Positions 27,076 through 54,873 of a DNA stretch of 62,518 bases are shown here, in pieces. The stretch's first letter is position 1; the number at the start of each line of letters is the position of its first letter. The stretch covers positions 1-62,518 of the IMG/VR virus record IMGVR_UViG_3300048928_000663; one strand, 5' to 3'. The DNA is from a virus. The position numbers and the translations under genes are program-made. The notes below the pieces were generated by a model. It made no database searches. It saw only the letters and a list, made by a program, of their open reading frames with translations, and was not told the origin of the DNA.

Positions 27076-27497
27076 TCGACCTGTCGAGGCAACTGATCGA
27101 GTTCGGCGAGCAGGCCGCCCGCGCGCACTTCGCGCACCTGAAGACCGGCGACCACCTGCAGCGCGGCCGCCAGATCGGTCGCGTCGAGGGCTTTACCATG
27201 GAATACTTCATCAGGGAGGGCACGGCCGCCGGCTTCATGCGCCGCCTGCTGGTCGGGCCGGAGCTGACCCCCAGCCCGGCCGTGCTCGTGCGCGCGGCGT
27301 GCCGCATGCAGGGCGTGATGCGCTGGGCGGAGAAGCCGCAGATCGTGAGCGCGGGCAGCGCGCGCGACTGGGCCGCGCCGGAGCCGCGCCTGCTGCGCGA
27401 GGTGCTCGCCGCCATCGACCCGCCGGCGGCGCGCCCGCGCTACGCCGCGAACGGCCGATGGGCGGAAGAGTTCGCCGACGTTTGGAACATGTCATGA
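27072..27497 (+). CDS. Hypothetical protein
   Basis: A 141-residue protein from GTG 27072, overlapping the peptidase stop (GTGA). Helical, with VEGFTMEYFIREGTAAGFM in the middle and a conserved-looking C-terminus ending WAEEFADVWNMS. No family was recognised. Confidence 0.7.
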   Translation: MIDLSRQLIEFGEQAARAHFAHLKTGDHLQRGRQIGRVEGFTMEYFIREGTAAGFMRRLLVGPELTPSPAVLVRAACRMQGVMRWAEKPQIVSAGSARDWAAPEPRLLREVLAAIDPPAARPRYAANGRWAEEFADVWNMS

Positions 27498-32605: not shown

Positions 32606-33658
32606 ATGCCCGCCAAGAAGACACCGAAGCCCGCAGAGCCTGAGCCGAAGGCGCGGAAGCCGGCCGCCAAGCGTGCGCCCGTGAAGACCAAGGCCAAGCC
32701 GGCGGCGCCTGCGAAGAAGGCCACCACGCCCGCCAGGAAGGGCCCAGCACCCAAGACTAAGGCACTGGACAAGCGCGCCGCGCCCGTGAAGCGGAAAGGC
32801 GCCACCACCAAGTCCAAGCCGGTGGACGAAGATGCCAGCACGCCGGAAGGGGGCGACTTCTGCGGCCTGTCCATCCGGGCCGCGCGGTTCGTTGACCTCT
32901 ACCTCGCCACCATGAACGCGGGCCAGGCCTACATCGAGGCCGGCTACACCGCCAAGACACCCGAGGTGGCCCGCGCATGCGCATCGCGGCTGCTAACAAA
33001 TGCTAACGCGCGTCACTATCTGGCCGTCCGCTCGAAGGCGATGTTCGACCGCCTGGAGCAGGAACAGGACCGGCTGCTGCAGTCGTTCACCTTCACTGCC
33101 TACGCCGATCCGCGCGAGCTCGTGGAGCACTTCCGCGGGGCCTGCCGGTTCTGCCACGGGAAGTTCAACCGCTGGCAGTACACGGCGGGCGAGTGGGACC
33201 AGATCATCACGAAGCACTCCGAGCGGCAGGAGCGGGCCGAGGACGAAGGCCGGACCTTGCCCAAGGCGCCCGACGAGAAGGGCGGCACCGGCTACGACCT
33301 GAAGGCGGACCCGAACCCTGACTGCCCGGAGTGCGGCGGGCTTGGCATGGGCCGCACCGTGGTGAAGGACACGCGGCACCTGTCGCCGGCCGCGCTCGCG
33401 CTGTACGCCGGCGTGAAGGAGGGCAAGGACGGCATCGAGGTCAAGATGCACGACCAGATGCGTGCGCGCGACACGCTGGCGAAGATCCGCAAGATGTTCG
33501 AGGACGGCACGCAGGTCAACCTGACCTTCGACGCCGAGAAGCTGGGCGAGCAGTTCCACAAGACCATGCAGCAGTCGGCTGATCGCATGGCGAAGATGCG
33601 GGCCGACCGACTTGCGCTGCGGCGCGAGCGCGAGCAGGGCGGCAACGGCGGCGGCTGA
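32606..33658 (+). CDS. terS: Terminase small subunit with H1-like tail and zinc finger
   Basis: A 350-residue protein, long for a small terminase. Residues 1-80 are Lys/Pro/Ala-rich (KARKPAAKRAPVKTKAKPAA), like histone H1 tails. Residues 88-140 are the Terminase_2-type helix-turn-helix (RAARFVDLYLATMNAGQAYI then PEVARACASRLLTNANARHY). CRFCHGKF and CPECGGLG (about residues 177-245) make a four-Cys zinc site. The rest is helical. It recognises packaging DNA and hands it to the large subunit, whose start overlaps this stop (TGATG). Confidence 0.86.
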   Translation: MPAKKTPKPAEPEPKARKPAAKRAPVKTKAKPAAPAKKATTPARKGPAPKTKALDKRAAPVKRKGATTKSKPVDEDASTPEGGDFCGLSIRAARFVDLYLATMNAGQAYIEAGYTAKTPEVARACASRLLTNANARHYLAVRSKAMFDRLEQEQDRLLQSFTFTAYADPRELVEHFRGACRFCHGKFNRWQYTAGEWDQIITKHSERQERAEDEGRTLPKAPDEKGGTGYDLKADPNPDCPECGGLGMGRTVVKDTRHLSPAALALYAGVKEGKDGIEVKMHDQMRARDTLAKIRKMFEDGTQVNLTFDAEKLGEQFHKTMQQSADRMAKMRADRLALRREREQGGNGGG

Positions 33659-35226
33659 TGGCGCGGCGCCTGACGCTGCTGGAAGACCCGCGCTACAACG
33701 CGTTCTGGCAGCGCTACCACTCTGACCCGCTGCTGTTCGCCGTCGAGGTGTGCGGCATGGGCCCGAGCGAGGACCAAGAGGACTTGCTGGTCGCCATGAG
33801 CGACCCCGAGGCGCGCGTGAGCGTGGTGTCGGGCACCGGCACGGGCAAGACGGCCACCTTCGCCCGCATTGCGCTGTGGCACCTGCTGGCGCATCCCTAC
33901 GGGTTCTTCGACGGCCTGGTGCAGGTCGGCAGCAACACCTACATCGGCGCGCCGCTCGTGCAGCAGGTCGGCGATGGCGTGTGGAAGGAGATGCAGGACG
34001 CGAACATCGCGATCAGCAACGGCGCGTGCGCCTGGATTTGCCAGTACTTCAGCATCGGCAAGACCCGCGTGGAGGTCCGCGGCTATGGCGAGCAGTGGTT
34101 CATCGCCCAGGTCGCCATGCAGGCCGGCAAGGCCGTGGGCGTGGCCGGCAAGCACCGGTACTGGCAGCTGATCATCATCGATGAGGCCGCCGGCGTCGGC
34201 GATGACCACTTCGACGTGATCGACGGCACGCAGACGCAGGGCGGCAACCGCACGCTGCTGGCCTCCCAGGGCGTGCGCCCGTCCGGCCGCTTCTACGACA
34301 CGCACCACAAGCTGGCCGTGGCGAACGGCGGCGCCTGGACGAACCTGCGGTTCAGTTCGATCAACTCGCCCTTCGTCACGAACAAGTGGCTGCGCGACCG
34401 CGAGACGGAGACAGGCGGCCGCGACACGCCGGAGTACATGATCCGCGTGCTGGGCCTGTTCCCCGAGCTGGGCGACAAGTTCCTGCTGGGCCGCAGCGCC
34501 ATCGAGCGCCGCATCGGCGTGCCGCCCGTCATCGACGTGGACAACGACCCGTGGGGCCACCTCATCATCATCGACGTGGGCGCGGGCGTGTACCGCGACA
34601 AGACCGTGGCCCTGCACGTGCGCGTGTGCGGCAACGGCGACCGCGTGGATGAAGACCCGCGGCGCGTCGACGTGGTGGGCATCCCGGTGTTCAGCAACGA
34701 ACTGGATTGGGCCGACGTGGCCGGCCGCGTGGTCGAGTACTCGCGCCTGCTGTCGAACGTCACCTTCGTCATCGACGTGGGCGGCCAGGGCGAGCAGTTC
34801 GCGCGCACCATGGAGCGCCTGGGCGTGGGCAACATCGTGCGCTCGCTGTGGGGGAACGCACCCTTCAAGACCAAGAACAAGAAGCGGTTCTTCAACCTGC
34901 GGGCGCAGTGCTCTGTGCACGCCTCCGAGGCCGTGAAGGACGGCCGCATCACCTTCACGCGCGAGCACCAGAAAGACCTGCTGGACCAGGGCGGCCGCCT
35001 GCCGTACCACTTCGATGAGAAGGCCCGCTACCACATCATGCCGAAGGAGCGCATGAAGGAGGAGGAGGGCCTGCCGTCGCCCGACTTGTGGGACACGGTG
35101 TGCATGGCCTTCCTCGAAGATGCGCACTACACCACGGCCGAGCGGGGCGGCCTGGCCAGCAACGCCAAGCAGCAGGGCGTGGTGGACGACATGGCGGCCG
35201 CGCTGGAGGCCTCGCTGGGGCTTTAG
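33658..35226 (+). CDS. terL: Terminase large subunit
   Basis: A 522-residue packaging motor. Walker A is GTGTGKT (residues 59-65), Walker B LIIIDEAAG (Asp175, Glu176), and a coupling segment RTLLASQGVRPSGRF follows. The C-terminal nuclease has LIIIDVGAGVYRDKT, then VTFVIDVGGQGEQFARTM and a late acidic region (SPDLWDTVCMAFLE), consistent with an RNase H-like nuclease. It cuts and translocates the genome into proheads. No portal gene follows it, which is unusual. Confidence 0.94.
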   Translation: MARRLTLLEDPRYNAFWQRYHSDPLLFAVEVCGMGPSEDQEDLLVAMSDPEARVSVVSGTGTGKTATFARIALWHLLAHPYGFFDGLVQVGSNTYIGAPLVQQVGDGVWKEMQDANIAISNGACAWICQYFSIGKTRVEVRGYGEQWFIAQVAMQAGKAVGVAGKHRYWQLIIIDEAAGVGDDHFDVIDGTQTQGGNRTLLASQGVRPSGRFYDTHHKLAVANGGAWTNLRFSSINSPFVTNKWLRDRETETGGRDTPEYMIRVLGLFPELGDKFLLGRSAIERRIGVPPVIDVDNDPWGHLIIIDVGAGVYRDKTVALHVRVCGNGDRVDEDPRRVDVVGIPVFSNELDWADVAGRVVEYSRLLSNVTFVIDVGGQGEQFARTMERLGVGNIVRSLWGNAPFKTKNKKRFFNLRAQCSVHASEAVKDGRITFTREHQKDLLDQGGRLPYHFDEKARYHIMPKERMKEEEGLPSPDLWDTVCMAFLEDAHYTTAERGGLASNAKQQGVVDDMAAALEASLGL

Positions 35227-40513: not shown

Positions 40514-41176
40514 ATGTGCAATCGGTACAACACGCCGGACCTGGCCGCCATCGAGCGCGAGTGGCACATCGGCCGGCAGAACCCGAACCGCTGGTGGGAG
40601 CAGTTCGTATTCCCTCGCGCGCAGGGGCCGTTCATCCGCCGCGCGCGCGACGACAGCGGCTACTCGCGCGAGCTGGTGGTTGGCCGGTGGGGCCTCATCC
40701 CCTGGTTCGCCAAGACGGCGGACATCACGTACAGCACGAACAACGCGCGCAGTGAGGAACTGGCGGGCAAGGCCACTTACAAGCAGCCGTGGGCCCGCGG
40801 CCAGCGGTGCATCATCCCCGCCGACACCTTCGATGAGCCGAACTGGGAGACGGGCAAGAACGTCTGGTATCGCTTCCATCGCGCGGACGGCCGCCCGTGG
40901 AGCCTGGCCGGCCTGTGGAATGCCTGGACGGACAAGGCGACGGGTGAGGTGCACGAGAGCTACACCATGCTGACGATCAACGCCGACCAGCATCCGCTGA
41001 TGCGCCGCATGCACAAGCCGGACCCCAAGCTGCCGCCGGACCAGCAGGACAAGCGCAGCGTGATCCCGATCGCACCCGACGACGTGGATCAATGGCTGGC
41101 CGGCACTGGAGCGGAGGCCGCGCAGTTGCTGCGGCTGGCGCCCGTGGAGGTATTCGACGCGAGGGCGATGTCATGA
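40514..41176 (+). CDS. SRAP (YedK/HMCES) abasic-site protein
   Basis: A 220-residue SOS-response-associated peptidase. Catalytic residues are present: Cys2 at the very N-terminus (MCNRY), Asn77 (NNARSE), Glu108 (DTFDEPN) and His160 (NADQHPLMRRM). This family forms a thiazolidine crosslink between Cys2 and abasic sites in single-stranded DNA, shielding them. In this phage it may protect replicating DNA after base excision, consistent with the HhH glycosylase-like gene at 25847. Confidence 0.92.
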   Translation: MCNRYNTPDLAAIEREWHIGRQNPNRWWEQFVFPRAQGPFIRRARDDSGYSRELVVGRWGLIPWFAKTADITYSTNNARSEELAGKATYKQPWARGQRCIIPADTFDEPNWETGKNVWYRFHRADGRPWSLAGLWNAWTDKATGEVHESYTMLTINADQHPLMRRMHKPDPKLPPDQQDKRSVIPIAPDDVDQWLAGTGAEAAQLLRLAPVEVFDARAMS

Positions 41177-41787
41177 CAGACGTGGAAGCGAGAACCCGCC
41201 AGCTGGCCACCGAGGTGGGGGCCGAGGAAGGACGCCATGTGGTCGACGGCGCAGACCTGGTTTCTGTGGCCGCCGGGTGGTTCACCAACAAGTGCGCCCA
41301 CGCTGCGGACTCTGGCGGCCTGCTGCCTGAGATGACTTTCGCGCTGGTGAACGCGATGGAAGGATGGGGCACGCCGGCGCAGCAGCGCTTCGCAGGTGTC
41401 CTGGCCAAGCTCTGCGCCGAAATCGCGGCCCAGCACCCTGGCGCGCCGGGCGATGCGGTCCGCGACGCATTCCTGTGGACGGGCTGGTGCCACGACGGTC
41501 TGCACGGCAGCGGCACCATGCTGCACGTGCGCGTCAACGGCCAGGGCGCGCCCGAGGTCGGCGAGCGCAAGGCGCTGGAACGGGCCTTCGGCCGGGTGTT
41601 GCTGCGCGAGTTGGTGACGCCCGAGGCAGTCGATGAGGCCTACAAGGCGGCCCGCAGGGCTGGCCCAGAAACGTTCTGGGCGCGGCGCTGGAAGATGGCT
41701 CGCAGTGCGGCGCTGGCTGAGGTGTTCCCGGAGGGCCAGCCGGCGCGCACGCAACTGCGCACAGCGTTCAGTTACAGCCCCTGGTAG
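41173..41787 (+). CDS. Hypothetical protein in repair cluster
   Basis: A 204-residue protein overlapping the SRAP stop by 4 bases, so cotranslated. Helical, with AAGWFTNKCAHAADSGGLLP, FLWTGWCHDGLHGSGTMLH and a basic C-terminus. No family was recognised. Being between SRAP and ligase-like genes suggests a DNA-repair role, by position only. Confidence 0.7.
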   Translation: MTDVEARTRQLATEVGAEEGRHVVDGADLVSVAAGWFTNKCAHAADSGGLLPEMTFALVNAMEGWGTPAQQRFAGVLAKLCAEIAAQHPGAPGDAVRDAFLWTGWCHDGLHGSGTMLHVRVNGQGAPEVGERKALERAFGRVLLRELVTPEAVDEAYKAARRAGPETFWARRWKMARSAALAEVFPEGQPARTQLRTAFSYSPW

Positions 41788-41796
41788 CTGGGGAGG

Positions 41797-42429
41797 GTGG
41801 TGCAAGCCCCGAGCCTCGCCGAACTGCAGCCGATGCTGCTGACCGAGCGCAAGACGCCGTTCAGCGACCCGGGCTGGTCCTACGAACTGAAGTTCGACGG
41901 GTATCGCCTCATGGTCGAGGTCGACGCCGGCGCGGTGGCGCTGAAGTCTCGGGGCGGCGCCGATGCGACACGATGGTTCCCCGAGGTGGTCGCGGGCCTG
42001 TCGGCGCTGCGCGGAGGCCGCCACGTGCTGGATGGCGAGGTGTGCGTGCTGGATGACCTGGGCCGCGCTGACTTCGACCAGCTGCACGCCCGCGCGATGC
42101 GGCGGAAGTGGTTCAAGGGCGCGCCGCCCGTGGTGTTCTGCGCCTTCGACGCGATGGTGATCAACGGCCGCGACATCATGGCGAAGCCGCTGGTCGCCAG
42201 GAAGGCCGCGCTGCGCCGCCTGTTGACGCCGGCGCCGGCCCAGGTGCTCTACGTGGCCGGGATCAAGGGCGAGGGTGCCGCGCTCTACGAACAGGCGGTC
42301 GCGCTGCGGCTGGAAGGCATTGTGGCGAAGCGCGAGGGCTCGCCCTACGTGCCCGGCGTGCGGTCTGATGACTGGGTGAAGATCAAGCGGCCGGGCGCCA
42401 CGCCGGCCCAACGCTTCACACGCGCCTGA
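41797..42429 (+). CDS. ATP-dependent DNA ligase, catalytic domain only
   Basis: A 210-residue LigD-type nucleotidyltransferase domain. Motif I is ELKFDGYR (Lys32), motif III HVLDGEVCV (Glu81), motif IIIa FCAFDAMVI, motif IV EGIVAKREGSPY and motif V WVKIK. The OB-fold domain usual in DNA ligases is missing, so it is shorter than typical enzymes. It could seal nicks with a partner, or only transfer AMP. The start is GTG 41797 or GTG 41800. Confidence 0.88.
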   Translation: MVQAPSLAELQPMLLTERKTPFSDPGWSYELKFDGYRLMVEVDAGAVALKSRGGADATRWFPEVVAGLSALRGGRHVLDGEVCVLDDLGRADFDQLHARAMRRKWFKGAPPVVFCAFDAMVINGRDIMAKPLVARKAALRRLLTPAPAQVLYVAGIKGEGAALYEQAVALRLEGIVAKREGSPYVPGVRSDDWVKIKRPGATPAQRFTRA

Positions 42430-42436
42430 CGCGCGC

Positions 42437-43033
42437 CTATGCGGGCCTGCGCTTGCGCATGCCGATCATCCCGATCAAGCCCGCGCCGAGCAGGGCGATG
42501 CTGCCAGGCTCTGGCACATCGTTGATGGCCGCCTCCCAGTAGCCGGTGAAGACCGGGCGGTTGTCGATGGTGGTCGGCCCGTTGTCCGAGTTCAGGTATC
42601 CGCTCCACAGTCCCGTGCCGTCCGAACTCATGAAAAAGTCGTCGTAGGTGCCGTTGACCAGAAACGAGCCATCAAGCCAGCTGGTCGCGGTGAAAGAGCC
42701 TTCGATCCGGCAGTAGTAGTCGGACACGCAGGCTTGCTCGGCCAGGTCGATGTAGCCGAAGTTGCCCGGCCCGTTGAACGCCTGGAAGTTCGAGTTCTGG
42801 TAGGCCTGCTTGTCGTAGAAGCCGGGATGCAGGGTGTACGTCGTCACCGAGATGCTGGCGGTGCTGGCCGCCAGTTCGACGGTGATTCCTTCGACCAGGC
42901 TGGCGGGCGCAGGCCCGGGGCAGGCTGCGGACCCGTTGGCGCATGCAGTACTGGTCAGCTTGAACGTGTAGACGGTGCCTGCGCTGGCGGCGGTGCAGGC
43001 GGCCAAGAGCGCGGCTGCAGCGAGTTTCTTCAT
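42437..43033 (-). CDS. Secreted PEP-CTERM protein
   Basis: A 198-residue protein with an N-terminal signal peptide (KKLAAAALLAACTAASAGTV) and, at the C-terminus, the PEP-CTERM sorting tail: VPEPGSIALLGAGLIGMIGM followed by a basic RKRR. PEP-CTERM proteins are sorted by exosortase in exopolysaccharide-forming Gram-negative bacteria. The mature part is beta-rich with six Cys. A phage copy could remodel the host surface. AAGG precedes ATG 43033. It stands alone on the minus strand beside the ligase-like gene. Confidence 0.9.
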   Translation of the reverse strand: MKKLAAAALLAACTAASAGTVYTFKLTSTACANGSAACPGPAPASLVEGITVELAASTASISVTTYTLHPGFYDKQAYQNSNFQAFNGPGNFGYIDLAEQACVSDYYCRIEGSFTATSWLDGSFLVNGTYDDFFMSSDGTGLWSGYLNSDNGPTTIDNRPVFTGYWEAAINDVPEPGSIALLGAGLIGMIGMRKRRPA

Positions 43034-43146
43034 CCTTGGATTTCCCCTCATATCCGGCAACAGGCCTGCCGTGTGGCATGGTGATCTGTTGCGGAATGTA
43101 AACGACCGGCCTGGGGTGGTCCACCGCGGGGGAACGAGGGGGCGGC

Positions 43147-43311
43147 CTACTGGCGCAGCAGCGGCGGCTCGCGGAAGACCAACGACAGCACCAGCGACAC
43201 GATCAGCAGCATGTAGCCGAACTCCAGCAGGCCGCGCAGGCCCAGCAGCGTGCCCAGCACCTCCATGGCGAGGCCGGCGCCGGCCAGGGTCATGAACGGG
43301 CGGGACTTCAT
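43147..43311 (-). CDS. Small membrane protein
   Basis: A 54-residue protein with two hydrophobic segments, about residues 6-27 (FMTLAGAGLAMEVLGTLLG) and 29-46 (LEFGYMLLIVSLVLSLVF). It overlaps the upstream gene by 4 bases. A holin-like role is possible but not demonstrated. Confidence 0.66.
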   Translation of the reverse strand: MKSRPFMTLAGAGLAMEVLGTLLGLRGLLEFGYMLLIVSLVLSLVFREPPLLRQ

Positions 43312-43592
43312 GGGCGCTGGCCCTGCTTGGCGGCCTCGATCGCCGCACTCTGCAGGTTCTGCATCTCGGTCTCGCGCTGCCTGCGCTGTGCGCGCAGGTC
43401 ACGCTCGCGCGCGCAGTCCGCCACCACGCGCTGGAAATCGGGGCCTACGGCGTGGCCGTTCGTTATGCCGGCGAAATGCGCCAGTACCCAGTCGGGCCGG
43501 TCGCGGGCCACGTACAGGCGCCCGGTCTGCGCTCGCACGATCATCACGATGTAGTGCGGGATGACTCGAAGGAACGACAGCAGGCCTCTCAT
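43308..43592 (-). CDS. Hypothetical protein
   Basis: A 94-residue protein. A hydrophobic N-terminus (LLSFLRVIPHYIVMIVRAQ) is followed by a charged coiled-coil C-terminus (CARERDLRAQRRQRETEMQN). It resembles a small i-spanin-like layout, without support from neighbouring lysis genes. Confidence 0.66.
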   Translation of the reverse strand: MRGLLSFLRVIPHYIVMIVRAQTGRLYVARDRPDWVLAHFAGITNGHAVGPDFQRVVADCARERDLRAQRRQRETEMQNLQSAAIEAAKQGQRP

Positions 43593-43759
43593 GGCTTGGC
43601 CTTCCAGCTGACCACCAGTTCAGCCAGCGCCACCAGCAGCGAGGCGACCACCAACGCGGCGCCCAGAAGCCCCAGGCTGCGCATGCCCAGGGGGGCGCCC
43701 ATCAGTCCCACGCTGGTGCCGATCACCGTTCGGATGAGGTGCGCTCTGAGGTCGTACAT
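43589..43759 (-). CDS. Small membrane protein
   Basis: A 56-residue protein with two likely membrane segments (IRTVIGTSVGLMGAPLGM and LGLLGAALVVASLLVALAEL). Together with the 43147 gene and the 43308 gene it forms a small-membrane-protein cluster. Function unknown. Confidence 0.64.
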   Translation of the reverse strand: MYDLRAHLIRTVIGTSVGLMGAPLGMRSLGLLGAALVVASLLVALAELVVSWKAKP

Positions 43760-44421
43760 CACGCTTCAGGCCCCGTGACCATGCCCAGCATCGCGGCCAT
43801 CGCCTTGCCGTGCACGCCCGCCGCCTCGCGGGTTGCGTACAGCATTCGGCGCTCCAGGGCGCGCAGCAGGTTGTCGCGCGCGTATCCCGGGGCGGCGCCG
43901 GCGTTGCCGAGCATGGCGTAACCATCGCTCCAGGGGCTGGCCGCCCACACTTCGCCTTCGGCTGGCAACGTGGTCAGCGGAGCATCGATCTCCACGCCGA
44001 AGATGCGGATGCTGGCCGGCTTGACGCGCATGATGCTGCCCACCGCCACCATGTGCAGGGCTTCACGGGCCGCGACATCGCGCCATTCGTCGTTGACGTG
44101 CGCCTGCACGCCGCGGCCGTCCGCAATGGCGTGCAGCACATCGCCCTGGGGGTGTGGTGTGGCCGGCGACGCCGATACTTCGGCATCGGTCACTAGGTCG
44201 TGCGGGTGGCTTTCCCCCGGGTTGCCGGCGTTGACGCGACCGGTGTCCCTCCAGACGTGCTCTGCATCAACATTGCTCGCGGCGGCGTGCCCGCCGACAT
44301 AGGCGTAGTACTGCGCCAGCCCGTACTTTTGGTGCTGGTCCATTGCGGTCACGGTCATACCGTCACGGCGCACGTAGCGCTTGCCGATGACGATTGGAAG
44401 GGTCAGGGTAGGGCTGTTCAT
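43759..44421 (-). CDS. Hypothetical protein
   Basis: A 220-residue protein. Its start (PIVIGKRYVRRDGMTVTAM) is a motif shared by many phage early proteins, and residues 80-140 are polar. It shares one base with the downstream start (TGATG). No domain was recognised. Confidence 0.68.
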   Translation of the reverse strand: MNSPTLTLPIVIGKRYVRRDGMTVTAMDQHQKYGLAQYYAYVGGHAAASNVDAEHVWRDTGRVNAGNPGESHPHDLVTDAEVSASPATPHPQGDVLHAIADGRGVQAHVNDEWRDVAAREALHMVAVGSIMRVKPASIRIFGVEIDAPLTTLPAEGEVWAASPWSDGYAMLGNAGAAPGYARDNLLRALERRMLYATREAAGVHGKAMAAMLGMVTGPEA

Positions 44422-44540
44422 GGTGCGATGCGGTTGCGCAGCGTCCGGAGCCGGCGCATGTTGAGGTGGGGATAGCGCGCGCACCAGGCGGTGCTGCGTT
44501 GGAAGGCGCGCGAGGCGCGCAGGGCGGTGGCGAGGGTCAT
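44418..44540 (-). CDS. Very small basic protein
   Basis: A 40-residue Arg-rich protein (RASRAFQRSTAWCARYPHLN then MRRLRTLRNRIAP). It overlaps neighbours by 4 bases on both sides, the main reason to accept it. Confidence 0.58.
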   Translation of the reverse strand: MTLATALRASRAFQRSTAWCARYPHLNMRRLRTLRNRIAP

Positions 44541-44761
44541 ACGCGCTGCCGCAGCGCGTTGAGGTCGATCGCCTTCAGCAGCAGGTCGCGGTGCTCGACC
44601 AGCTCGATGGATTCGGCGACCAGCCGGTCCAGCATGTCGCGAGCGCACATCGGGCACGACATCAGGGCGGGTTCTTGGCCCAGCGCCTTCACGCGGTCTG
44701 CGTCGAAGGCGAAGCGCAGGTTGTGCTTGGTGCACAGGATCGTCTGCAGCGAGTTGCTCAT
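44537..44761 (-). CDS. Small Cys-containing protein
   Basis: A 74-residue protein with CTKHNLRFAF and CPMCARD, a partial zinc site, then a helical C-terminus (LDRLVAESIELVEHRDLLLK). It overlaps its neighbours by 4 bases. Confidence 0.66.
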   Translation of the reverse strand: MSNSLQTILCTKHNLRFAFDADRVKALGQEPALMSCPMCARDMLDRLVAESIELVEHRDLLLKAIDLNALRQRV

Positions 44762-44979
44762 AGCGTGGGGTCTCGGCGGAGTTCGGTGTGGCGCTTGGCT
44801 GCGTCGATGAAGACCTGGGCGGCGGCGATGTAGGTGTCCAGATGGCGGTGGCTTCGCACGTCGGGCGCCTGGGCGTGCTCCAGCATGCGAGCCGCATGCC
44901 GCAGGACTTCCTTGCGGTGGGCCATGCCATCCTCCGGTGGCGCGGGCGGCGTGGGCGAGAAGAAGCGGCCGCCCCTCAT
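44758..44979 (-). CDS. Small hypothetical protein
   Basis: A 73-residue protein. ATG 44979 was chosen because it overlaps the upstream stop (ATGA), as every other gene here does; ATG 44925 or an upstream ATG 45012 are alternatives. The body is helical (KEVLRHAARMLEHAQAPDV). Confidence 0.6.
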   Translation of the reverse strand: MRGGRFFSPTPPAPPEDGMAHRKEVLRHAARMLEHAQAPDVRSHRHLDTYIAAAQVFIDAAKRHTELRRDPTL

Positions 44980-45218
44980 TTGCGAGGCCTCCCGCGCGTC
45001 TCGTCCTTCCACTGGGCCTTGCGGCGATCGCGGCCGAAGAACGGCGGCTCAGCGGCATTTGTCTGGATGCGCATCGGCTCGCCGTGCGCGGCGCCGACAG
45101 TCGGAGGCGCCAGTGCGAGGGCCGAGGCGGCCGCCAGAGCAAGGGTGTAGCGCGCTCTGGTGTTGCTGCGCGTGCCGCCCACGTGCACGGTGATGGTCAG
45201 ATCGTGAGCGCGGGTCAT
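44976..45218 (-). CDS. Small hypothetical protein
   Basis: An 80-residue protein with a short strand-rich start (DLTITVHVGGTRSNTRARYT), a hydrophobic Ala-rich stretch (LALAAASALALAPPTVGAA) that may be a membrane helix, and a basic C-terminus. Confidence 0.6.
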   Translation of the reverse strand: MTRAHDLTITVHVGGTRSNTRARYTLALAAASALALAPPTVGAAHGEPMRIQTNAAEPPFFGRDRRKAQWKDETRGRPRK

Positions 45219-45496
45219 GGTGCGAGCACTGCCTTCTCGACCGCGTGCAGGTCGTTGGCCGCGCCCAGGGCTGTCTCGACGTTGCTGCTGGCATTGGCAA
45301 GGCCCCAAGTCAGCGCGTGCATGACGTTGGCCGACTTGGTGACCATGCTGTCGCCGTAGCCCATGACCTGCTCGGCCCGGTCGCACGCCTCGCGCATGGT
45401 CCTGATGGCATGCCGCAGTGCGGCGGTCGCGCGCTCCTGCTGGCCCTTGATCATCGCCGCATCGGCGGCGCGGGGAGGGGAGGTGTTGGTGGTCAT
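45215..45496 (-). CDS. Helical hypothetical protein
   Basis: A 93-residue protein predicted to be almost entirely helical (MIKGQQERATAALRHAIRTM then VETALGAANDLHAVEKAVLA). It is coupled to the methyltransferase by a 4-base overlap. No family was recognised. Confidence 0.64.
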   Translation of the reverse strand: MTTNTSPPRAADAAMIKGQQERATAALRHAIRTMREACDRAEQVMGYGDSMVTKSANVMHALTWGLANASSNVETALGAANDLHAVEKAVLAP

Positions 45497-48042
45497 GCGG
45501 CCTTTCGATAGATGAGGTCTTCGTGGGAGAAGTTGGCCCGAACAAGGGCCTCGGACATTGGCGGGCTCACGCTGTTGCCCACCATGCGCACCTGGGCTTC
45601 GTTGGTCAGGGTGATGCGAGGCAGGCCCAGCGGGTCGGATGCCTGCTCGCCGCCGGCGAACAGCAGCGCGGGATCGGGCACCTCGTTGAAGATGTAGGTG
45701 GCCGGGAAGCCCTGCGCGGCGAACAGTTCTTTCGGCTTGAGCATGCGCAGCGTGATGTCCACCAGCGCCCACCACTGGCCGTCGTGGAACATCAGCACCA
45801 GGTCGGCGGGCTCGGGGAAGTGCTCGGGCAGGTGCTCGCGCAGCAGGTCGGCGCACTGCTTCGCGCGGGTGCGCTGCTCGTCGGTCAGGCACCCGGCTGG
45901 CACCTGCGTGCTCTGCACCAGACCCATGCGGCCCTTAGTCGGCAGCGTGTGCATCGGGCCGCCGACGTGCTGGTCCTGGCCGCCGCTGCTGTAGTACTTG
46001 ACGCAGTACGCCGTCACCAGCCGCTGCTGCGAGCCAGACGCCGTGATCGTGCTCATCGGGTCGTTGGCGGCGCGGCCGTCGCCGTTGTAGAAGCCGCCGT
46101 AGGCCTGCTCCAGGCACGCGCCGACCAGGCCGGCCGTAGCGCCGCTGGCGGTCACGGTGCCAAGCGGGATGCCCAGGCTGCGCACGCCGTGGCTGAAGCG
46201 CCGGCCGGGCGTCTTGCCCTCGCCGTGTCCCATGTCGATGAGGCTGGCCGACACCACGGCGTGCTTGTTCGCGGTCACGACGGTGCCGATGGGCTGCTCC
46301 AGCGACTGCGCGCGGGCGTCCTGGCCGGGCCGCTCGCCATAGCCGATGGTGATGAGGTTGGCCCCCACCATGCCCATGGAGTTGCCGGTGCTCGGCCGCT
46401 TGGGCGTGCCCCCTGCCGTGATGGTAGGCAGCGGCTCGGCGATGTCGCTGCCGACGCTGCCCGTGCGGAACTTCGTGATGTGCGCGGCCATCAGCGCGTG
46501 GTGCTGGCCGCCGGCCGAGATGGTGGAAAGCGGGTCTTGCACGTCATGGCCTCCCAGGTGCGCCTCGCTCGTGCCGCGCAGTGGGGCCAGCGCCGGCGCA
46601 ACCACGGAGAAGTGCCCGCCCTTCACCTGGGCGCAGATTGTGCGCACCGGCTCGTTGGCGGCCATGGTCCGCTGGTTGGAGGCGTTCGCGTGCTCGGTCA
46701 GGAACGGTGCGAGCACCGGCTGCGCGATGCAGCTGTCCGCCTTGCTGGTGATAGTCTGCGCAGGCTTGTGCACGCTGCGCTCAGGCGACTGGCCCATGCG
46801 GCCGCCCACGCCCACGATGAACGGGCTGGCGCTGGTCAGCACGTGGCGCCACAGGCCCTTCGCCACGCGGCGTTGCGTGTTGACGGCCAGGGGCTTCGGC
46901 CTGTCCCACAGGCTGCGGCCCGCGATGTCCCAGTCGATGCACTCGGCAGCGGTGCGGTAGGCCTGCATGTTGCCGGCCAGCACGTCGCGGGCCGTGGGCT
47001 CGGCGTGCGTGGCGTCCGGCCAGACGATCGGCAGGCCGTCGCGCCGCGCGATCAGGAACAGGCGCTTGCGGATGGTCGGCGCGCCGTAGTCGCACGCGCG
47101 CAGTTCGCGGTGGTCCACGGTGTAGCCGTGCGCGCGCAGCTGCCGCTTGAAGCTCTCGAAGGTCTTCCCCTTCTTGGCCGGGTCGGGCCGCGGCAGGCCA
47201 TCGGTGCCCACGATGAGCGGGCCCCAGTCCTTGAATTCTTCAACGTTTTCCAGCATCAAGACGCGCGGTTTGCACAGCGCGGCCCAGCGCATGCCCACCC
47301 AGGCCAGGCCGCGGATGTGCTTCGCCACGGGTGTGCCGCCCTTGGCCTTGCTGAAGTGCTTGCAGTCGGGGCTGAGCCAGACCAGCGCGACCGGCTGGTT
47401 GTTGGTCACGGCGATCGGGTCGACCTCCCACACGCTTTCGCACAGGTGGCGCGTGTGCGGGTGGTTGATGGCGTGCATCGCCAGCGCCTCGGGATCGTGG
47501 TTGATCGCGATGTCCACCGGCCGACCGAACGCCGCTTCCAGGCCCGTCGACGTGCCGCCGCCGCCCGCGAAGTTGTCGATGATGAGTTCGTGGCCCAGGT
47601 CCAGCGGCAGGGTGGGCGCCGTCGCAGTTCGCTCCGCCGGACGGGCGTGGCGCCGGCCCGGCGCGCGGCGCTTCGCTGGGCCAGTGCGCAGCAGCAACTC
47701 GGCGATTTGGGCGGCCGTGACCTGCACCTCGAAGTCCTTGAACTCGACTTGGCGGTGAAGCTCGTTGTCCTCGGCGCGGACTGGGTTGTGCGTCGTGCTG
47801 GCCAGCCGGTAGGTGCGCAGTGGCGCAGGTAGAGCGGGCAGCAGGTGCTGCTCGATGAGGTCGGCCAGCACGCCACGTGCGTCCGCGTCCACGCCAGTGC
47901 TCGCCACGGCCTGAAGGTAGGCGGGGTGGTCTTCCAGCAACTCGCCATCGGCAAAGCCCCAGTTGGCGAACAACTGTGCCGCCGCCAAGGCGACCCCTGC
48001 GGCGGCGGGCAGATCGAGGGGCAGGGTGAAGTTGTCGGCCAT
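45493..48042 (-). CDS. DNA cytosine-5 methyltransferase, large repetitive TRD
   Basis: An 849-residue C5-methyltransferase. Motif I is NFAGGGGTSTGLEAAF (residues 157-172), motif IV SPDCKHFSKAKGG with the catalytic Cys227 (SPDC instead of PPC), motif VI ENVEEF (265-270); motif X MVGNSVSPPMSEALV lies near the C-terminus. The target-recognition region (about 405-660) is made of at least six tandem units of 35-45 residues, each with P(L/M/I)xTI(S/T)A followed by a hydrophobic stretch. An N-terminal domain of about 150 residues is added. It probably methylates phage DNA against restriction. Confidence 0.93.
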   Translation of the reverse strand: MADNFTLPLDLPAAAGVALAAAQLFANWGFADGELLEDHPAYLQAVASTGVDADARGVLADLIEQHLLPALPAPLRTYRLASTTHNPVRAEDNELHRQVEFKDFEVQVTAAQIAELLLRTGPAKRRAPGRRHARPAERTATAPTLPLDLGHELIIDNFAGGGGTSTGLEAAFGRPVDIAINHDPEALAMHAINHPHTRHLCESVWEVDPIAVTNNQPVALVWLSPDCKHFSKAKGGTPVAKHIRGLAWVGMRWAALCKPRVLMLENVEEFKDWGPLIVGTDGLPRPDPAKKGKTFESFKRQLRAHGYTVDHRELRACDYGAPTIRKRLFLIARRDGLPIVWPDATHAEPTARDVLAGNMQAYRTAAECIDWDIAGRSLWDRPKPLAVNTQRRVAKGLWRHVLTSASPFIVGVGGRMGQSPERSVHKPAQTITSKADSCIAQPVLAPFLTEHANASNQRTMAANEPVRTICAQVKGGHFSVVAPALAPLRGTSEAHLGGHDVQDPLSTISAGGQHHALMAAHITKFRTGSVGSDIAEPLPTITAGGTPKRPSTGNSMGMVGANLITIGYGERPGQDARAQSLEQPIGTVVTANKHAVVSASLIDMGHGEGKTPGRRFSHGVRSLGIPLGTVTASGATAGLVGACLEQAYGGFYNGDGRAANDPMSTITASGSQQRLVTAYCVKYYSSGGQDQHVGGPMHTLPTKGRMGLVQSTQVPAGCLTDEQRTRAKQCADLLREHLPEHFPEPADLVLMFHDGQWWALVDITLRMLKPKELFAAQGFPATYIFNEVPDPALLFAGGEQASDPLGLPRITLTNEAQVRMVGNSVSPPMSEALVRANFSHEDLIYRKAA

Positions 48043-48335
48043 CAGCCTTGCACTCCATGCGCGCGCAGTGCTTCCAGCACGCCGGCCACGGTGATGCCGG
48101 GCTTCATCAGGGCGTCGTCGGCCAGTTCGGTGCCGAACTCGTCGTCCAGCGAGAACTGCAGTTCAACCAGGTCCAGGCTGTCGGCGCCCAGGTGCGCGAC
48201 GAGCTGGCGGTCGGGCTCGATGTCCTCGGGCTGCACGCACAGGTGCAGGGAAAGGGCGCGGACCACGCGCTCGAACACGCCCGGGTTGAGCGGCGCTGTC
48301 GGCGTGGCCGGGGAGGGGGTTGCTTGCTCTGCCAT
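48042..48335 (-). CDS. Acyl carrier protein
   Basis: A 97-residue acyl carrier protein. The phosphopantetheine motif is HLGADSLDLVEL with Ser53, after VQPEDIEPDRQLVAHLG and before FSLDDEFGTELADDALMKPG. The first 18 residues are a Pro/Ala tail. Such proteins carry acyl groups on a 4'-phosphopantetheine arm attached by a host transferase. It overlaps the methyltransferase by one base, so the two are translated together. Role in the phage is unknown; DNA or lipid modification are possibilities. Confidence 0.92.
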   Translation of the reverse strand: MAEQATPSPATPTAPLNPGVFERVVRALSLHLCVQPEDIEPDRQLVAHLGADSLDLVELQFSLDDEFGTELADDALMKPGITVAGVLEALRAHGVQG

Positions 48336-48342
48336 GGGCGCC

Positions 48343-48780
48343 TCAGAAGGGAATTTCGGTGTCGGGGTCAGGCTCGACGAAGGCGCTGCACGCGGCCACC
48401 TGAGCCTGGATGTCGGCCGGCAGCGTTTCGAGGGCATACCAGGCAGACAGGCGGCGCATGGCGCCGCGCTCATCGGCAGTCAAGTCCGCCGGGTCGAACG
48501 GCTTCTTCACTTCCTGCGGCGGCGTGGCCGTGGCACGCATGAGGGCGTCGGCGCACCCCACGGCCTGGTTGGCGGCCACGTCGGCCCAGGTTTTGCCATC
48601 CGCGACCCGCAGGGCCGTCGCCATGTCTGCCAGCTCCAGGCGTTCGGAGTTGAGATAGCGCGCCAGCACTGGGGCCATCAGCTGCCCGGCGAGATGCAGG
48701 CGAATGGAGATGCCCGGCGGGTCGTAGGGGCTGGTCGGCGGGTGGTACGGCGCGTCCTGCGCGGGCTGGTCTTCGGCCAT
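48343..48780 (-). CDS. Hypothetical protein, first gene of methyltransferase operon
   Basis: A 145-residue protein with a CAGGAGCC site before ATG 48780. The N-terminal 20 residues are Pro/Asp-rich; the body is helical (RLHLAGQLMAPVLARYLNSE then DALMRATATPPQEVKKPFDP). It ends in an acidic tail. No family was recognised. Confidence 0.7.
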   Translation of the reverse strand: MAEDQPAQDAPYHPPTSPYDPPGISIRLHLAGQLMAPVLARYLNSERLELADMATALRVADGKTWADVAANQAVGCADALMRATATPPQEVKKPFDPADLTADERGAMRRLSAWYALETLPADIQAQVAACSAFVEPDPDTEIPF

Positions 48781-49656: not shown

Positions 49657-52600
49657 ATGCTCAACAAACTGACAGAACAGGGCCAGCGCGTCCCGCTCAC
49701 ACCGAGCGAGCTTGCGCTGCTGCGGGCGGCCCTCGGCGTGGCGACCCACCTGGGCGACCGCTCGCTGGCACAGATCGAGGTCATCAACGCGGCCATCTCG
49801 CAAGGCTCGAACGAGTACGTGTTCGGTAGCACGGTGACGTTGCGCACCAACGATGCCAAGAACGGCACCACGTACACCCTGACCGGCATCGGCGCCTCGG
49901 CCGCCTTCGTGCCGCCGGCGGCGGGCAACACCGCGCCGACCGTGCCGCTGAGCATCGCGGGCACGCCGGTGCTGCAGGCCCAGGTCGGCACGCCGTATTC
50001 CTTCGGTGTCGTGGCCGGCGGCGGCGCTTCCCCCTACGCCTACTCGGTGGTCGGCACGCTGCCCGCGGGCCTGGCGCTGAACTCGGTCACGGGCGTGCTG
50101 TCCGGCACCCCGAGCACGGCCGGCGTCGCTTCCAACATCGTCATCCGCGTCACCGACGCGCTGCAGGCTACCGCGGACCTGCCGGCGTTCACGCTGACCG
50201 TCTCGGCCGTGGCTGTGCCGCTGACCATCGGCGGCACCCCGCCGGTGATCGCCACCGTGGGCACGCCGTACAGCTTCACGCCCACCGTCAACGGCGGCGT
50301 CGGCGCTCGCACCTTCGCGCTGGCCGCCGGCCCGCTGCCGGGCGGTCTGACCCTGAACACGGAGACCGGCGCGATCACGGGCACGCCCACCAGCACCGGC
50401 ACCAGCACGAACATTTCGATCCGGGTCACGGACTCGACCACCGCGTTTGCCACGCTGGCCGCCTTCCAGATCGCCGTGGGCGCCGCGCTATCCATCTCGG
50501 GCGCGCCCGTGACGGCCGGCCAGGTCGGCGCCGCGTACGCCGGCTTCTCGGTCGCCGCTGCCGGCGGCACTGGCCCCTACACCTTCAGCGTGTTCGCCGG
50601 CACGCTGCCGCCCGGCCTGGCGCTCAACGGAACGACCGGTGCCATCACCGGCACGCCGACCTCGGTGGTCAACGCCGCCGGCATCATCGTCCGCGCCACC
50701 GACGCGGCCGGGGCCACGGCCAACCTCGCCGCGTTCTCGATCAACGTCATCGCTGCGGCGGTGCCCGTCACGGTGGCCGGCACCCCGGTGACAAGCGGCA
50801 CCGTGGGCACGGCCTATGCCGGATTCTCGGCATCGGCCTCTGGCGGCACAGGCCCCTACACGTACAGCCTGCACGCCGGCACGCTCCCTGCCGGCCTGAC
50901 CCTGAATGCGTCGACCGGCGCCGTTTCTGGCACGCCGACCGCAGTGGTCACCCGCACGGGCATCGTGATCCGCGCGACCGACTCGCTGGGCGCATTCGGC
51001 GACCTGGCGGCCTTCCAGATCGCCATCGCCGCGGCGGCCGTGCCTGTGACCGTGTCCGGCACGCCCGTGACCAGCGCGGTCGAGGCCTCGGCCTACGCCG
51101 GCTTCACCGTGTCCGCCAGCGGCGGCACCGCGCCGTTCACCTTCAGCGTGGTCGGCGGCGCGCTGCCGGCCGGCCTGAGCCTCAACGCCTCCACCGGCGT
51201 GGTGTCCGGCACCCCGACCACGGTCGGCACGCAGACCGGCATCGTCATCCGGGCCACCGACAGCCTGGGCGCCTTCGCGAACCTCGCGGCGTTCCAGATC
51301 GCCGTGGGCGCGCGCCTGAGCATCGCCGGCACGCCCTCGCAGAACGCCACCATCGGCGTCGCCTACAGCTTCACGCCCACCACGGCCGGCGGCGCGGGCG
51401 CCAAGACGTTCTCGCTGGCCTCGGGCACGCTGCCCGCCGGCCTGTCGCTCAACACCAGCACGGGCGCCATCACCGGCTCGCCGACGACTGCGGGCGCATC
51501 GTCCAACATCGTGCTGCGCGTGACCGACACGTCCGGCACCGCCAGCCTGGCCGCGTTCACCCTGACCGTGACGGCCGCCCTGACCATCAGCGGCACGCCG
51601 GCCACGACGGGGCAGGTCGGCACGGCCTACGCTTTCACCCCGACTGCCGCTGGCGGGGTCGTGCCGCGCACCTTCGCGCTCGTGGCTGGCACCCTGCCGG
51701 CCGGGCTGTCCTTCGAGGCCAGCACCGGCGCGATCACGGGCTCGCCCACCACCGCAGGGACCGCCGCAGGCCTGTCGATCCGCGTAACCGACAGCCTGGG
51801 CGCCATCGCCACGCTGCCCAGCTTCGACATCGCAGTGGCCGCGATGCCCGCGATCGTGTTCACGACGCAGCCGCAGAACCAGGCGGTGAGCGACGGCCAG
51901 AAGGCCACCATCGGCTGGGATTCCACCAACACCACGAACTACCAAGTGCAGGTCCGCGAGGCCGGCAGCACAACGTGGTCTGACGTGGGGGCGGTCATCA
52001 CGGCGAAGTTCTACGAAACACCCGTGCTGAACGCGAGCGTCTCGGGCCGCCAGTACCGCGTCGTTGCCAACCCGGGTGGCGCGGCCGTGCCGAGCCAGGT
52101 TGTGACCGTTGTGGTGCTCGCTGTTGGCGCTGTGACCTTCGACTCCACGACGAAGGCCGAGCAAGACGCAGCGATCGCCGTGAGCGCGGACAAGATGACG
52201 TGGCTCGCGAAGACGATTCAGTTGTTCGGCGCCGCGCCGCGCTACCTGCTCATCACGCGCAACGGAACGACCGTCTTCAACGGCTTGCTGGAGGGGGAGC
52301 CGACCCAAGCGAACGGCCGGATGTACTTCGGCCACGTGGCAGAGCACGTCGCGGCATTGGCTGGCGACTTCTCTTCTGGTACCTGGGTGTTCCGCATTGA
52401 AAGCGCGTCGCGCTTCGCGCAGGGCAGCATCGGACTGCCTGGCTCTGGTGCCGCCTGGATCATCGACGCCTCACTGCCAAACCCCGCGGTCACCGAGTGC
52501 AGCGTGCACCTGAACGGCTGCTGCATCGCCGCGCCGCTGGCGCTGGCGGAATCACCGGACATCGAGCTGTACCGAGTGAACGTGGTCAACGATGCGGCCC

Positions 52601-54873
52601 AGGCCCAGGCCGCCGACTTCAGCGCGCCGATGTTCGGCGCGGGGTTCGCACGCGGTGACATCCCGGCGGGAACCTACCCGCATTTCCGCACTGCCGCCGG
52701 CGTCGCTTGCCCTGCCACGCTGCACAGCATCACGTACTGGCCGGATGGCAGCATGAAGTTTGCGGGTGTGTTGCTCAATGTCCCTGCTGCAGTACCCGCA
52801 ACAAGCGCCCTCGCGATCGGTGTGCGCAGTGGCGGCAGTGCGCCCGTGGCCGGGACACGCACCACGGCGGACCTCACGGCTGCCGACATCAATGTCCAGC
52901 TGGTCGGCGTGGATGGCCTGACGGGGACCTGGGGTGCTATGTTGAACAACGCCATCGCCACAGGCACGGTCGAAAAGCTCGGCGATGGCCCCGCCGGCGC
53001 ACTGTGGCGCATCGGTGGTGAGGTCCGCGATGGCAGCAATGCCGCTCACGGGCAGTTGTACTGCTGGCACTATGTTGTGGCTCTCAGCAACGCCAGCGGA
53101 TCGCTGCGCGGCCTGCGGTATTTGGGCCGTGTTGCCCAGCCGTGGATCGACGTTGCTACGCCGACGCCACGACACCGCGACCTGCAAGCCACGCTGCGGC
53201 GGGGAACCACTGTGATCCGTGTGTTTCAAGGTCACACCGACACGGAAACGCCTGGCGGCACCATCCGCCTGCCGCACTTCGCGTCCTTTCTCACAGCCGG
53301 AACCGATGCCAAGTGGGACTACATCCAAGGCGGTGGGTCGGCTTCCGCAGATTCGTCTGTGCGTGTGACTCTGGACGCCGCATACCTGATCAGGTCCAAG
53401 GTCATCCCGCCGTTCGACCTTGCTAACGCCGCCACCGTCTATGCCAGCGTGGACCACATCCCCATGGGCAAGGGCACATACCAAGCGCGTGGTATGGGGC
53501 AAACAGGTGGCAGGCCAGACATTGGCCTGTGGACGGATTGGTGCGTCACACACCTGTCGAACCAAACGGCGCTCAACGAACGCATCTTGCGCGCGAATGC
53601 GATGTTGGCGGCCAACTGGCGGATCGCAAACCGGCGGCAATCCACAGGCATGCCAGCCCTATATTCCCCCATGCCGGGTTCTTATTCTGGATTGGGTGTG
53701 ACCAACACACCAAGCCCCGCAACCGTGTCTCCAAATTTGAGCCTGTGGGCCGAGGACGGCGCGCATTTCCCCAACCCACTTTCCTGGGCCTACGTGTTCA
53801 GCGGCGAGCCGCAGTATCTGGACTTGATGCAAGACCGGGGTGGAAACGTTCAGAACTTGAACGCTGGAACCAAAGTGCTGAATGTGACGTTCCCACGAAC
53901 GAACACACAAACGTCCTTTGCAGGCGTCCGCACGGTTCAAATGGGATCTGGCGGGCCGTTGTTCCACGGCACGGGGATGTTGTTTCAGTATGGTGGGCGC
54001 ATTGCAGCATGGGCTTTGCGCGATGTCGGCATGGCCGCAGGTTTCTCTCCGGATAGCCCGTACAAGCAGTACCTGACCGATGTGCTGGCGAGCAACTTTG
54101 CGGCGTTCAAATACTACGGAGAATCTCAGCCGTCCACATATCGAGACGCTGGGCTGTTCATTTTGCAGAACAGCGACGGGGCTGCGACCGGGTACGAGAG
54201 TCCGTGGATGAGCGGTTATCTTGGCGGGGCAGTTTGCGCCATCAACGACTTAATACCGAGCGCTGATGGCGCGTACATGCAGAGCTATCTGTCGCGCTTC
54301 TGGACCGCCCATGCGGCCGTGATGGACCCCGGTTCGATGATGGCCTACCGTCACAGTCCTTGGGACGGCAACGGAAACCTCATCGCTTCGGCAGCTGAAT
54401 CGCTGTTTACATCGGGTTCGTGCACGATGTCGTTTACCGCAGCGGATTCGCGGGGCACCATCAATGGCGCCAACTGGAGCCCGACCGACGGAGACGCTTA
54501 TGCCTTCTGCGTTGGCGCATTTTCCAGTGCGTACCCGTTCCCACAGGCAACGTTCAACAAGCGCCTCTATGCAGTCAATTGCGTGGGCAAGACGTTGCAG
54601 CTGGCGGAAACTCCAGGCGGCGCGCCCATAACGGTCCCGGCCGATGTGAATTGCGGAATTTTCCTGCAGCAAGCCAAAAATCTGTCGCCAGACGCGCACG
54701 TCCACTCGACTGCCTACACGGAATATTTCCAAATCCCCGCCGGGGTGATGGGCTATTACGCGGCGCGCGGCGAAACCGGGGCGAAGGCGCTATTCGATAT
54801 CTACCGGGCTCGGTCGGATGCCAAAGGCTTCCCAAATCCGGCAAACCGATTCAATTTTTCTGGAGTTATTTAA
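49657..54873 (+). CDS. Large tail protein with PIG repeats and lyase-like C-terminus
   Basis: A 1738-residue receptor-binding or tail-fibre candidate. Residues 1-90 are a putative virion-attachment domain. Residues about 95-728 hold seven tandem He_PIG-type Ig-like units of 85-92 residues, each with GTPxxxxxVGTxYS, a GTLPAGLxLNxxTGxxxGTP core and a VTDxxxA end. One Ig/FN3-like unit follows. From about residue 980, GDIPAGTYPHFR then LHSITYWPDGSMKFAGVLLN resembles the barrel of YetA/rhamnogalacturonan lyase-like proteins, and residues about 1190-1738 look like an alpha-toroid. Capsule or polysaccharide degradation is likely, but inferred. Confidence 0.8.
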   Translation: MLNKLTEQGQRVPLTPSELALLRAALGVATHLGDRSLAQIEVINAAISQGSNEYVFGSTVTLRTNDAKNGTTYTLTGIGASAAFVPPAAGNTAPTVPLSIAGTPVLQAQVGTPYSFGVVAGGGASPYAYSVVGTLPAGLALNSVTGVLSGTPSTAGVASNIVIRVTDALQATADLPAFTLTVSAVAVPLTIGGTPPVIATVGTPYSFTPTVNGGVGARTFALAAGPLPGGLTLNTETGAITGTPTSTGTSTNISIRVTDSTTAFATLAAFQIAVGAALSISGAPVTAGQVGAAYAGFSVAAAGGTGPYTFSVFAGTLPPGLALNGTTGAITGTPTSVVNAAGIIVRATDAAGATANLAAFSINVIAAAVPVTVAGTPVTSGTVGTAYAGFSASASGGTGPYTYSLHAGTLPAGLTLNASTGAVSGTPTAVVTRTGIVIRATDSLGAFGDLAAFQIAIAAAAVPVTVSGTPVTSAVEASAYAGFTVSASGGTAPFTFSVVGGALPAGLSLNASTGVVSGTPTTVGTQTGIVIRATDSLGAFANLAAFQIAVGARLSIAGTPSQNATIGVAYSFTPTTAGGAGAKTFSLASGTLPAGLSLNTSTGAITGSPTTAGASSNIVLRVTDTSGTASLAAFTLTVTAALTISGTPATTGQVGTAYAFTPTAAGGVVPRTFALVAGTLPAGLSFEASTGAITGSPTTAGTAAGLSIRVTDSLGAIATLPSFDIAVAAMPAIVFTTQPQNQAVSDGQKATIGWDSTNTTNYQVQVREAGSTTWSDVGAVITAKFYETPVLNASVSGRQYRVVANPGGAAVPSQVVTVVVLAVGAVTFDSTTKAEQDAAIAVSADKMTWLAKTIQLFGAAPRYLLITRNGTTVFNGLLEGEPTQANGRMYFGHVAEHVAALAGDFSSGTWVFRIESASRFAQGSIGLPGSGAAWIIDASLPNPAVTECSVHLNGCCIAAPLALAESPDIELYRVNVVNDAAQAQAADFSAPMFGAGFARGDIPAGTYPHFRTAAGVACPATLHSITYWPDGSMKFAGVLLNVPAAVPATSALAIGVRSGGSAPVAGTRTTADLTAADINVQLVGVDGLTGTWGAMLNNAIATGTVEKLGDGPAGALWRIGGEVRDGSNAAHGQLYCWHYVVALSNASGSLRGLRYLGRVAQPWIDVATPTPRHRDLQATLRRGTTVIRVFQGHTDTETPGGTIRLPHFASFLTAGTDAKWDYIQGGGSASADSSVRVTLDAAYLIRSKVIPPFDLANAATVYASVDHIPMGKGTYQARGMGQTGGRPDIGLWTDWCVTHLSNQTALNERILRANAMLAANWRIANRRQSTGMPALYSPMPGSYSGLGVTNTPSPATVSPNLSLWAEDGAHFPNPLSWAYVFSGEPQYLDLMQDRGGNVQNLNAGTKVLNVTFPRTNTQTSFAGVRTVQMGSGGPLFHGTGMLFQYGGRIAAWALRDVGMAAGFSPDSPYKQYLTDVLASNFAAFKYYGESQPSTYRDAGLFILQNSDGAATGYESPWMSGYLGGAVCAINDLIPSADGAYMQSYLSRFWTAHAAVMDPGSMMAYRHSPWDGNGNLIASAAESLFTSGSCTMSFTAADSRGTINGANWSPTDGDAYAFCVGAFSSAYPFPQATFNKRLYAVNCVGKTLQLAETPGGAPITVPADVNCGIFLQQAKNLSPDAHVHSTAYTEYFQIPAGVMGYYAARGETGAKALFDIYRARSDAKGFPNPANRFNFSGVI

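Follow-up and report, generated by a model that had tools for sequence, protein, structure and literature searches.

The occurrence of a gene for a PEP-CTERM protein within a phage contig raises the question of whether such a gene is a working part of the phage and, if so, what a phage would gain from a protein that would be sorted by a bacterial enzyme. Exosortase substrates are poorly understood surface proteins of bacteria, and exosortase is believed to direct its substrates to the cell surface or slime. The window, that is the whole stretch of DNA analysed here, is an IMG/VR contig of 62,518 bases, which is classed as linear and is likely to be a fragment; it lacks the portal and capsid part, which follows the prohead protease in related phages. 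What is new here is a PEP-CTERM protein of familiar type, borne by a phage.

The gene is located on the reverse strand at 42437–43033, exactly as the initial annotation had placed it, with the ATG at 43033, the stop codon ending at 42437 and a product of 198 amino acids. The ATG is preceded by a GAGGGG ribosome-binding site, and the G+C content by codon position (0.53/0.53/0.86) is coding-like. The signal peptide, MKKLAAAALLAACTAASA (residues 1–18; 42980–43033, reverse strand), was recognised by inspection, hydropathy and the aligned starts of homologues, and consists of MKK, a hydrophobic stretch and ASA. Its predicted cleavage is most likely at the type I site ASA, followed by G; a lipoprotein signal, considered on account of the lipobox-like string LAAC at residues 10–13, is less likely, since just 12 residues precede Cys13. 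The secreted domain (residues 19–171; 42521–42979, reverse strand) contains four cysteines (Cys31, Cys38, Cys102 and Cys108) and the family motif LWSGYLNSD, and is predicted with low confidence to be all-beta (pLDDT 53). The AlphaFold model, built from three sequences, gave no fold match at E ≤ 0.001, and at that pLDDT the fold search is uninformative.

The C-terminus (residues 173–198), VPEPGSIALLGAGLIGMIGM-RKRRPA, comprises a Pro-Glu-Pro motif, a hydrophobic helix and a basic tail. The sorting signal (PF07589/TIGR02595; 42446–42520, reverse strand) has VPEP from residue 173, and the basic tail RKRRPA occupies residues 193–198 (42440–42457, reverse strand). The protein scored 28.4 bits against TIGR02595 (curated cut-off 16) and 30.8 bits against PF07589 (cut-off 20.7), with residues 172–197 of the 198 matched, so that the model comparison proposed in the initial annotation recognised the tail and its claim of a full PEP-CTERM sorting signal, including the signal peptide, was confirmed. 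In a six-frame scan this gene was the sole PF07589 match of the record (E 1.9e-9), and 14 control genomes contained none. A loose regular expression for the tail matched once in the real window and once each in three of 40 shuffled versions; chance origin is nevertheless excluded by the presence of a signal peptide at the N-terminus, the profile scores and the existence of full-length homologues. By the available sequence tests, the product is a PEP-CTERM protein.

Residues 113–196 also matched the C-terminal part of the model for the floc protein PepA of Aquincola (NF033554; 40.3 bits, E 3e-10). Assignment to that type was rejected, as the score falls below the cut-off of 80, the N-terminal half is unmatched and the score comes largely from the sorting tail. 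With the known PEP-CTERM/exosortase (EpsH, XrtA) system the gene shares the Sec signal, VPEP, hydrophobic helix and basic tail, and its homologues lie in genomes with one EpsH-type exosortase. It differs in being carried on a phage record without exosortase: in agreement with the initial annotation, PF09721 had no match in this linear fragment even at E ≤ 1, so sorting would be carried out in trans by the host.

On this basis we consider it probable that the gene is host-derived cargo and that its product alters the surface of the carrier after sorting by the host's exosortase. In such a scheme, a cargo gene (moron) would have been acquired from a bacterial PEP-CTERM family; the small protein would be exported by Sec, the exosortase of the host (EpsH/XrtA) would cleave and sort it at its C-terminal PEP-CTERM helix, and the mature domain would reach the cell surface or the exopolysaccharide matrix. 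The benefit, at a guess, could be superinfection exclusion, through a changed surface or matrix on the path of other phages into the cell, or altered aggregation of the carrier cells. As expected of a moron, the gene lies inside the genome of a phage of temperate lineage and outside the phage's own machinery, and it has bacterial homologues.

The genes around it encode RecT, an exonuclease, a helicase, a small terminase, and baseplate, tail and prohead-protease proteins. The large terminase subunit (33658–35226, forward strand) is PacB-like and assigns the phage to the P1-like lineage, being 33% identical to PacB of P1, 50% to that of Xanthomonas phage Rb1, 54% to the product of a gene on the Ideonella dechloratans megaplasmid and 64% to copies in Collimonas genomes, the closest relatives in named genomes. 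The likeness to P1-like phages extends to terminases 50–72% identical within the lineage, the same small terminase and a homologue (60802–61647, forward strand) of the Rb1 gene annotated as prohead protease. The window differs from them by a 25-kb cargo interval between terminase and protease, a distance of about 1 kb or less in several relatives and of 14 kb in Rb1. This interval contains SRAP, DNA ligase, the PEP-CTERM gene, a cytosine methyltransferase operon with an acyl carrier protein, and an Ig-repeat tail protein; from the separation of terminase and protease, the PEP-CTERM gene is seen to lie in an inserted, variable cargo and tail-fibre interval. It is adjoined by a cluster of SRAP (SOS response associated peptidase), an unassigned gene and DNA ligase (40514–42429, forward strand), of which the short ATP-dependent ligase, consisting of the adenylation domain alone (41800–42429), is convergent with it at a distance of 7 bp. 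Upstream, on the strand of the PEP-CTERM gene, the variable cargo region is a run of mostly short, overlapping genes (43147–48780, reverse strand) that includes a C5 cytosine methyltransferase (45493–48042, reverse strand). The 1738-residue tail protein (49657–54873) has seven He_PIG Ig repeats and a weak match to the PcRGLX N-terminal domain, and is possibly a polysaccharide-acting fibre.

Relatives of the terminase were found in chromosomal contigs of Collimonas, Pigmentiphaga, Pseudothauera, Nitrosomonas, Methylomonas, Ideonella and others; as these are prophages, the phages belong to a temperate lineage, with its centre in Betaproteobacteria. Assignment of the host by the terminase failed, since Collimonas, Pigmentiphaga, Burkholderia, Nitrosomonas, Methylomonas and others all appear. 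An exosortase was present in nine of the 22 hosts of terminase relatives and absent from the Collimonas hosts of the closest ones. The exosortase-negative hosts had almost no PEP-CTERM gene genome-wide, the exceptions being one Collimonas MAG with one such gene and one Methylovulum MAG with eight, the latter perhaps incomplete; this near-absence fits cargo that is kept only where the enzyme exists. For the window phage itself, we infer from the protein family that its host carries an exosortase.

The position of the window gene, between terminase and prohead protease with no repressor nearby, lends no support to expression in the lysogen rather than in lytic growth, although the initial annotation presumed display by the lysogen. 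A different arrangement was observed in contig G005, whose terminase is 53% identical to that of the window and 100% and 96% identical to those of two isolate-derived IMG/VR contigs, and whose matching segments are 88–93% identical to Nitrosomonas oligotropha. It carries two PEP-CTERM genes, which came to light via the terminase and not via the PEP-CTERM pattern described below; they flank an HSDR-type nuclease gene and, on the same strand as the repressor, begin immediately next to its locus (L182, 12748–15825). A search across the genus of Nitrosomonas oligotropha Nm45 showed that the first of these genes recurs in two genomes (G888 and G915), both exosortase-positive, in prophages of the G005 type and again adjoining the divergent repressor locus. 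In that search the two recurring copies were 82% and 79% identical to the G005 gene; compared with one another, the three are 77–81% identical, with pairwise dN/dS of 0.10–0.13. The sister contig G081 (terminase 96%) has neither PEP-CTERM gene and keeps the HSDR nuclease with an adjoining 58-bp remnant of a PEP-CTERM tail (L187, 9719–10854). By these comparisons of sequence, PEP-CTERM genes are gained and lost in the P1-like lineage, and the ones kept are under strong purifying selection beside the repressor. That is the usual place for prophage genes acting in the lysogen. The arrangement resembles that of the rexAB-type genes of lambda, in that the G005, G888 and G915 genes are directly beside the repressor and that of prophage G018, described below, is one gene away on the same strand; the window copy differs, as it sits in another cargo interval.

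The remnant in G081 shows that such genes do get lost, and it speaks for the strongest competing explanation, in which a host PEP-CTERM gene was gained by recombination as a passive passenger, useless to the phage and destined to disappear. The presence of a PEP-CTERM gene in just a minority of P1-like relatives and the high variability of the cargo region point the same way. However, the window gene is intact and has both signals, and wherever phage copies could be compared they are under purifying selection: this holds for the Nitrosomonas prophages, with the low ratios given above, and for three clusters of viral PEP-CTERM genes from metagenomic phage families, with median dN/dS of 0.40–0.49. 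The position beside the repressor is also kept among the phage copies compared. A mere passenger is thus unlikely, and functional cargo sorted by the host enzyme remains the preferred reading.

The origin of the window gene was approached through its relatives. Single-sequence searches of phage and plasmid collections, including 50,697 phage records, and a single-sequence scan of IMG/VR detected no relative of the window protein, so that, as a further difference from known P1-like phages, it is carried by no phage of the searched collection. Near-full-length relatives (30–41% identity by tblastn) were present in four of 401 genomes of the family of Ideonella livida (Burkholderiaceae), each with one exosortase. 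The family is rare: an order-wide profile search at E ≤ 1e-12, with up to seven candidates scored per genome, found it in one of 399 genomes (G386). In the family alignment the window protein is 38–40% identical to the other members, with no variation at Cys31, Cys102 and Cys108, in the LWSG..xxSD motif or in most of the tail.

Three of the four Burkholderiaceae relatives sit among ordinary chromosomal genes and the fourth, that of G386, adjoins tRNA-Arg. This tRNA-Arg locus recurs at the edge of IMG/VR contigs L022 and L086, and G386 has the same locus without a prophage; L022 and L086 were accordingly rejected as further phage-borne members, their copies being chromosomal flank next to tRNA-Arg. 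One phage-borne member was found, in the IMG/VR prophage UViG 649633004_000004 (G018/L188). Its place is the immunity region, with the recombination arm on one side and the replication arm on the other; an S24-type repressor on the same strand is one gene away, and a nuclease gene follows. Its 73% identity to a chromosomal copy points to exchange between chromosome and prophage.

At two chromosomal family members (L170, 1341–1501; L172, 2112–2283), a tRNA-Arg gene has its 3' end less than 100 bp away, and phages and islands commonly integrate at such sites.

Among viral contigs, this record is not alone in carrying a PEP-CTERM gene. A single strict DNA pattern for PEP-CTERM had matches in at least 119 IMG/VR contigs (L009–L127), some of the matches being host flank, as in L022. 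Among the matches listed, all 120 that were translated are in-frame C-terminal tails no more than 40 codons from the stop, the basic end being present as expected in nearly all, and the 113 proteins long enough to compare, the window's included, fell into 28 sequence clusters. The view of the initial annotation that PEP-CTERM proteins are normally chromosomal and linked to exosortase systems therefore holds in part: an exosortase accompanies the relatives of the window protein in all four genomes, but at least 119 viral contigs carry such genes as well, and the annotation, though largely sound, understates how frequently phages have them. No exosortase was detected in 44 PEP-carrying contigs (43 longer than 20 kb, and G005, the one terminase relative with PEP-CTERM genes among those examined), of which 15 have two or more PEP-CTERM genes, often in tandem. 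Eleven phage PEP-CTERM proteins, that of the window and ten others, had no PHROG match, and four of them, that of the window and three others, had none in the 50,697 phage records. No report of phage-encoded PEP-CTERM proteins was found by full-text searches of the literature, as judged from titles and abstracts, and as a class these genes may have been overlooked so far.

The genomic setting of several of these genes bears on a second alternative, that the tail is a mere C-terminal membrane anchor which perturbs the envelope in lytic infection without any exosortase. In L204 the genes for the portal, the major capsid protein and the PEP-CTERM protein form a row with others on one strand; in L205 just 3 bp separate the end of the PEP-CTERM gene from the portal gene that follows; and in L202 and L203 it stands between the portal and major capsid genes. 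Genes placed in this way within head and packaging modules may be late genes, and a hydrophobic helix with a basic end is what such an anchor would have. On the other hand, Pro-Glu-Pro is found repeatedly in phage families that are unrelated, and conservation is higher in the tail than elsewhere in the protein, an argument that is partly independent, as the search pattern itself contains the motif; both G005 genes, found via the terminase, keep Pro-Glu-Pro; and PEP-carrying phages and prophages with testable hosts sit in exosortase-positive hosts. Anchoring alone is consequently judged less likely again than a useless passenger. Contamination or a boundary error, by which a host gene is wrongly placed in a viral record, does occur, as the L022 and L086 copies prove when set against the prophage-free locus of G386, but it is very improbable for the window gene, which is separated from the record ends by 42 kb and 19 kb, with the terminase on one side and the tail, baseplate and prohead-protease genes on the other.

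With sorting by the host's exosortase retained as the favoured explanation, the upstream region was considered. The genes upstream on the same strand overlap or nearly so and are followed by a 113-bp gap (43034–43146, reverse strand), for which reason the PEP-CTERM gene may be transcribed from a separate promoter. Sigma-70 promoters were not found for it. The sequence CGGCAGGCCTGTTGCC at 43056–43071 (reverse strand) resembles a –24/–12 site, with a score of 8.3. A sigma-54 promoter was rejected here, as this score is reached by 7.7% of random 200-bp pieces and the site is 38 bp from the start. The 9-base string GGCAGGCCT (43056–43071) stands ahead of the window gene and also ahead of the G018 prophage gene and of the chromosomal copy of G095, at 33–38 bp from the start codons. 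It may be a conserved control element or may be due to chance, short GC-rich stretches sharing such strings too easily.

Viral PEP-CTERM genes in general were examined by a position-weight scan, with weights set manually on the basis of the established consensus. Sigma-54-like sites within 150 bp upstream were present at 21 of 91 such genes and at 22 of 1052 other genes of the same contigs (odds ratio 14, p 2e-13, the p value being inflated by kinship within clusters and by host-flank copies). Seventeen of the 21 sites are 48–72 bp before the start, over several clusters. In the case of the floc gene pepA, RpoN drives transcription from a mapped site, TGGCAC / CTGCTT, and some exosortase substrates control floc formation in wastewater bacteria (PMC9850573).

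Taken together, the data suggest that phages may commonly remodel the host surface in this way. More broadly, and more tentatively than for the window gene itself, it is possible that phages of exosortase-bearing bacteria share a widespread, unlisted class of cargo, of which the window gene would be a member: PEP-CTERM proteins that borrow the host's exosortase, often under a host-type sigma-54 promoter, and rebuild the surface and matrix of the infected or lysogenic cell, probably excluding other phages or changing aggregation. If phages keep exosortase substrates without the enzyme, exosortase would be a host factor that phages exploit. Prophages could then spread matrix and flocculation traits, and a comparison of a prophage gene in the presence and absence of epsH could give PEP-CTERM proteins a function.

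Finally, acyl carrier protein genes (PF00550) were observed in two of the P1-like phages. That of the window (48042–48335, reverse strand) lies beside the methyltransferase gene, and that of G005 (26800–27132; L183, 8300–8632) sits directly after the terminase.
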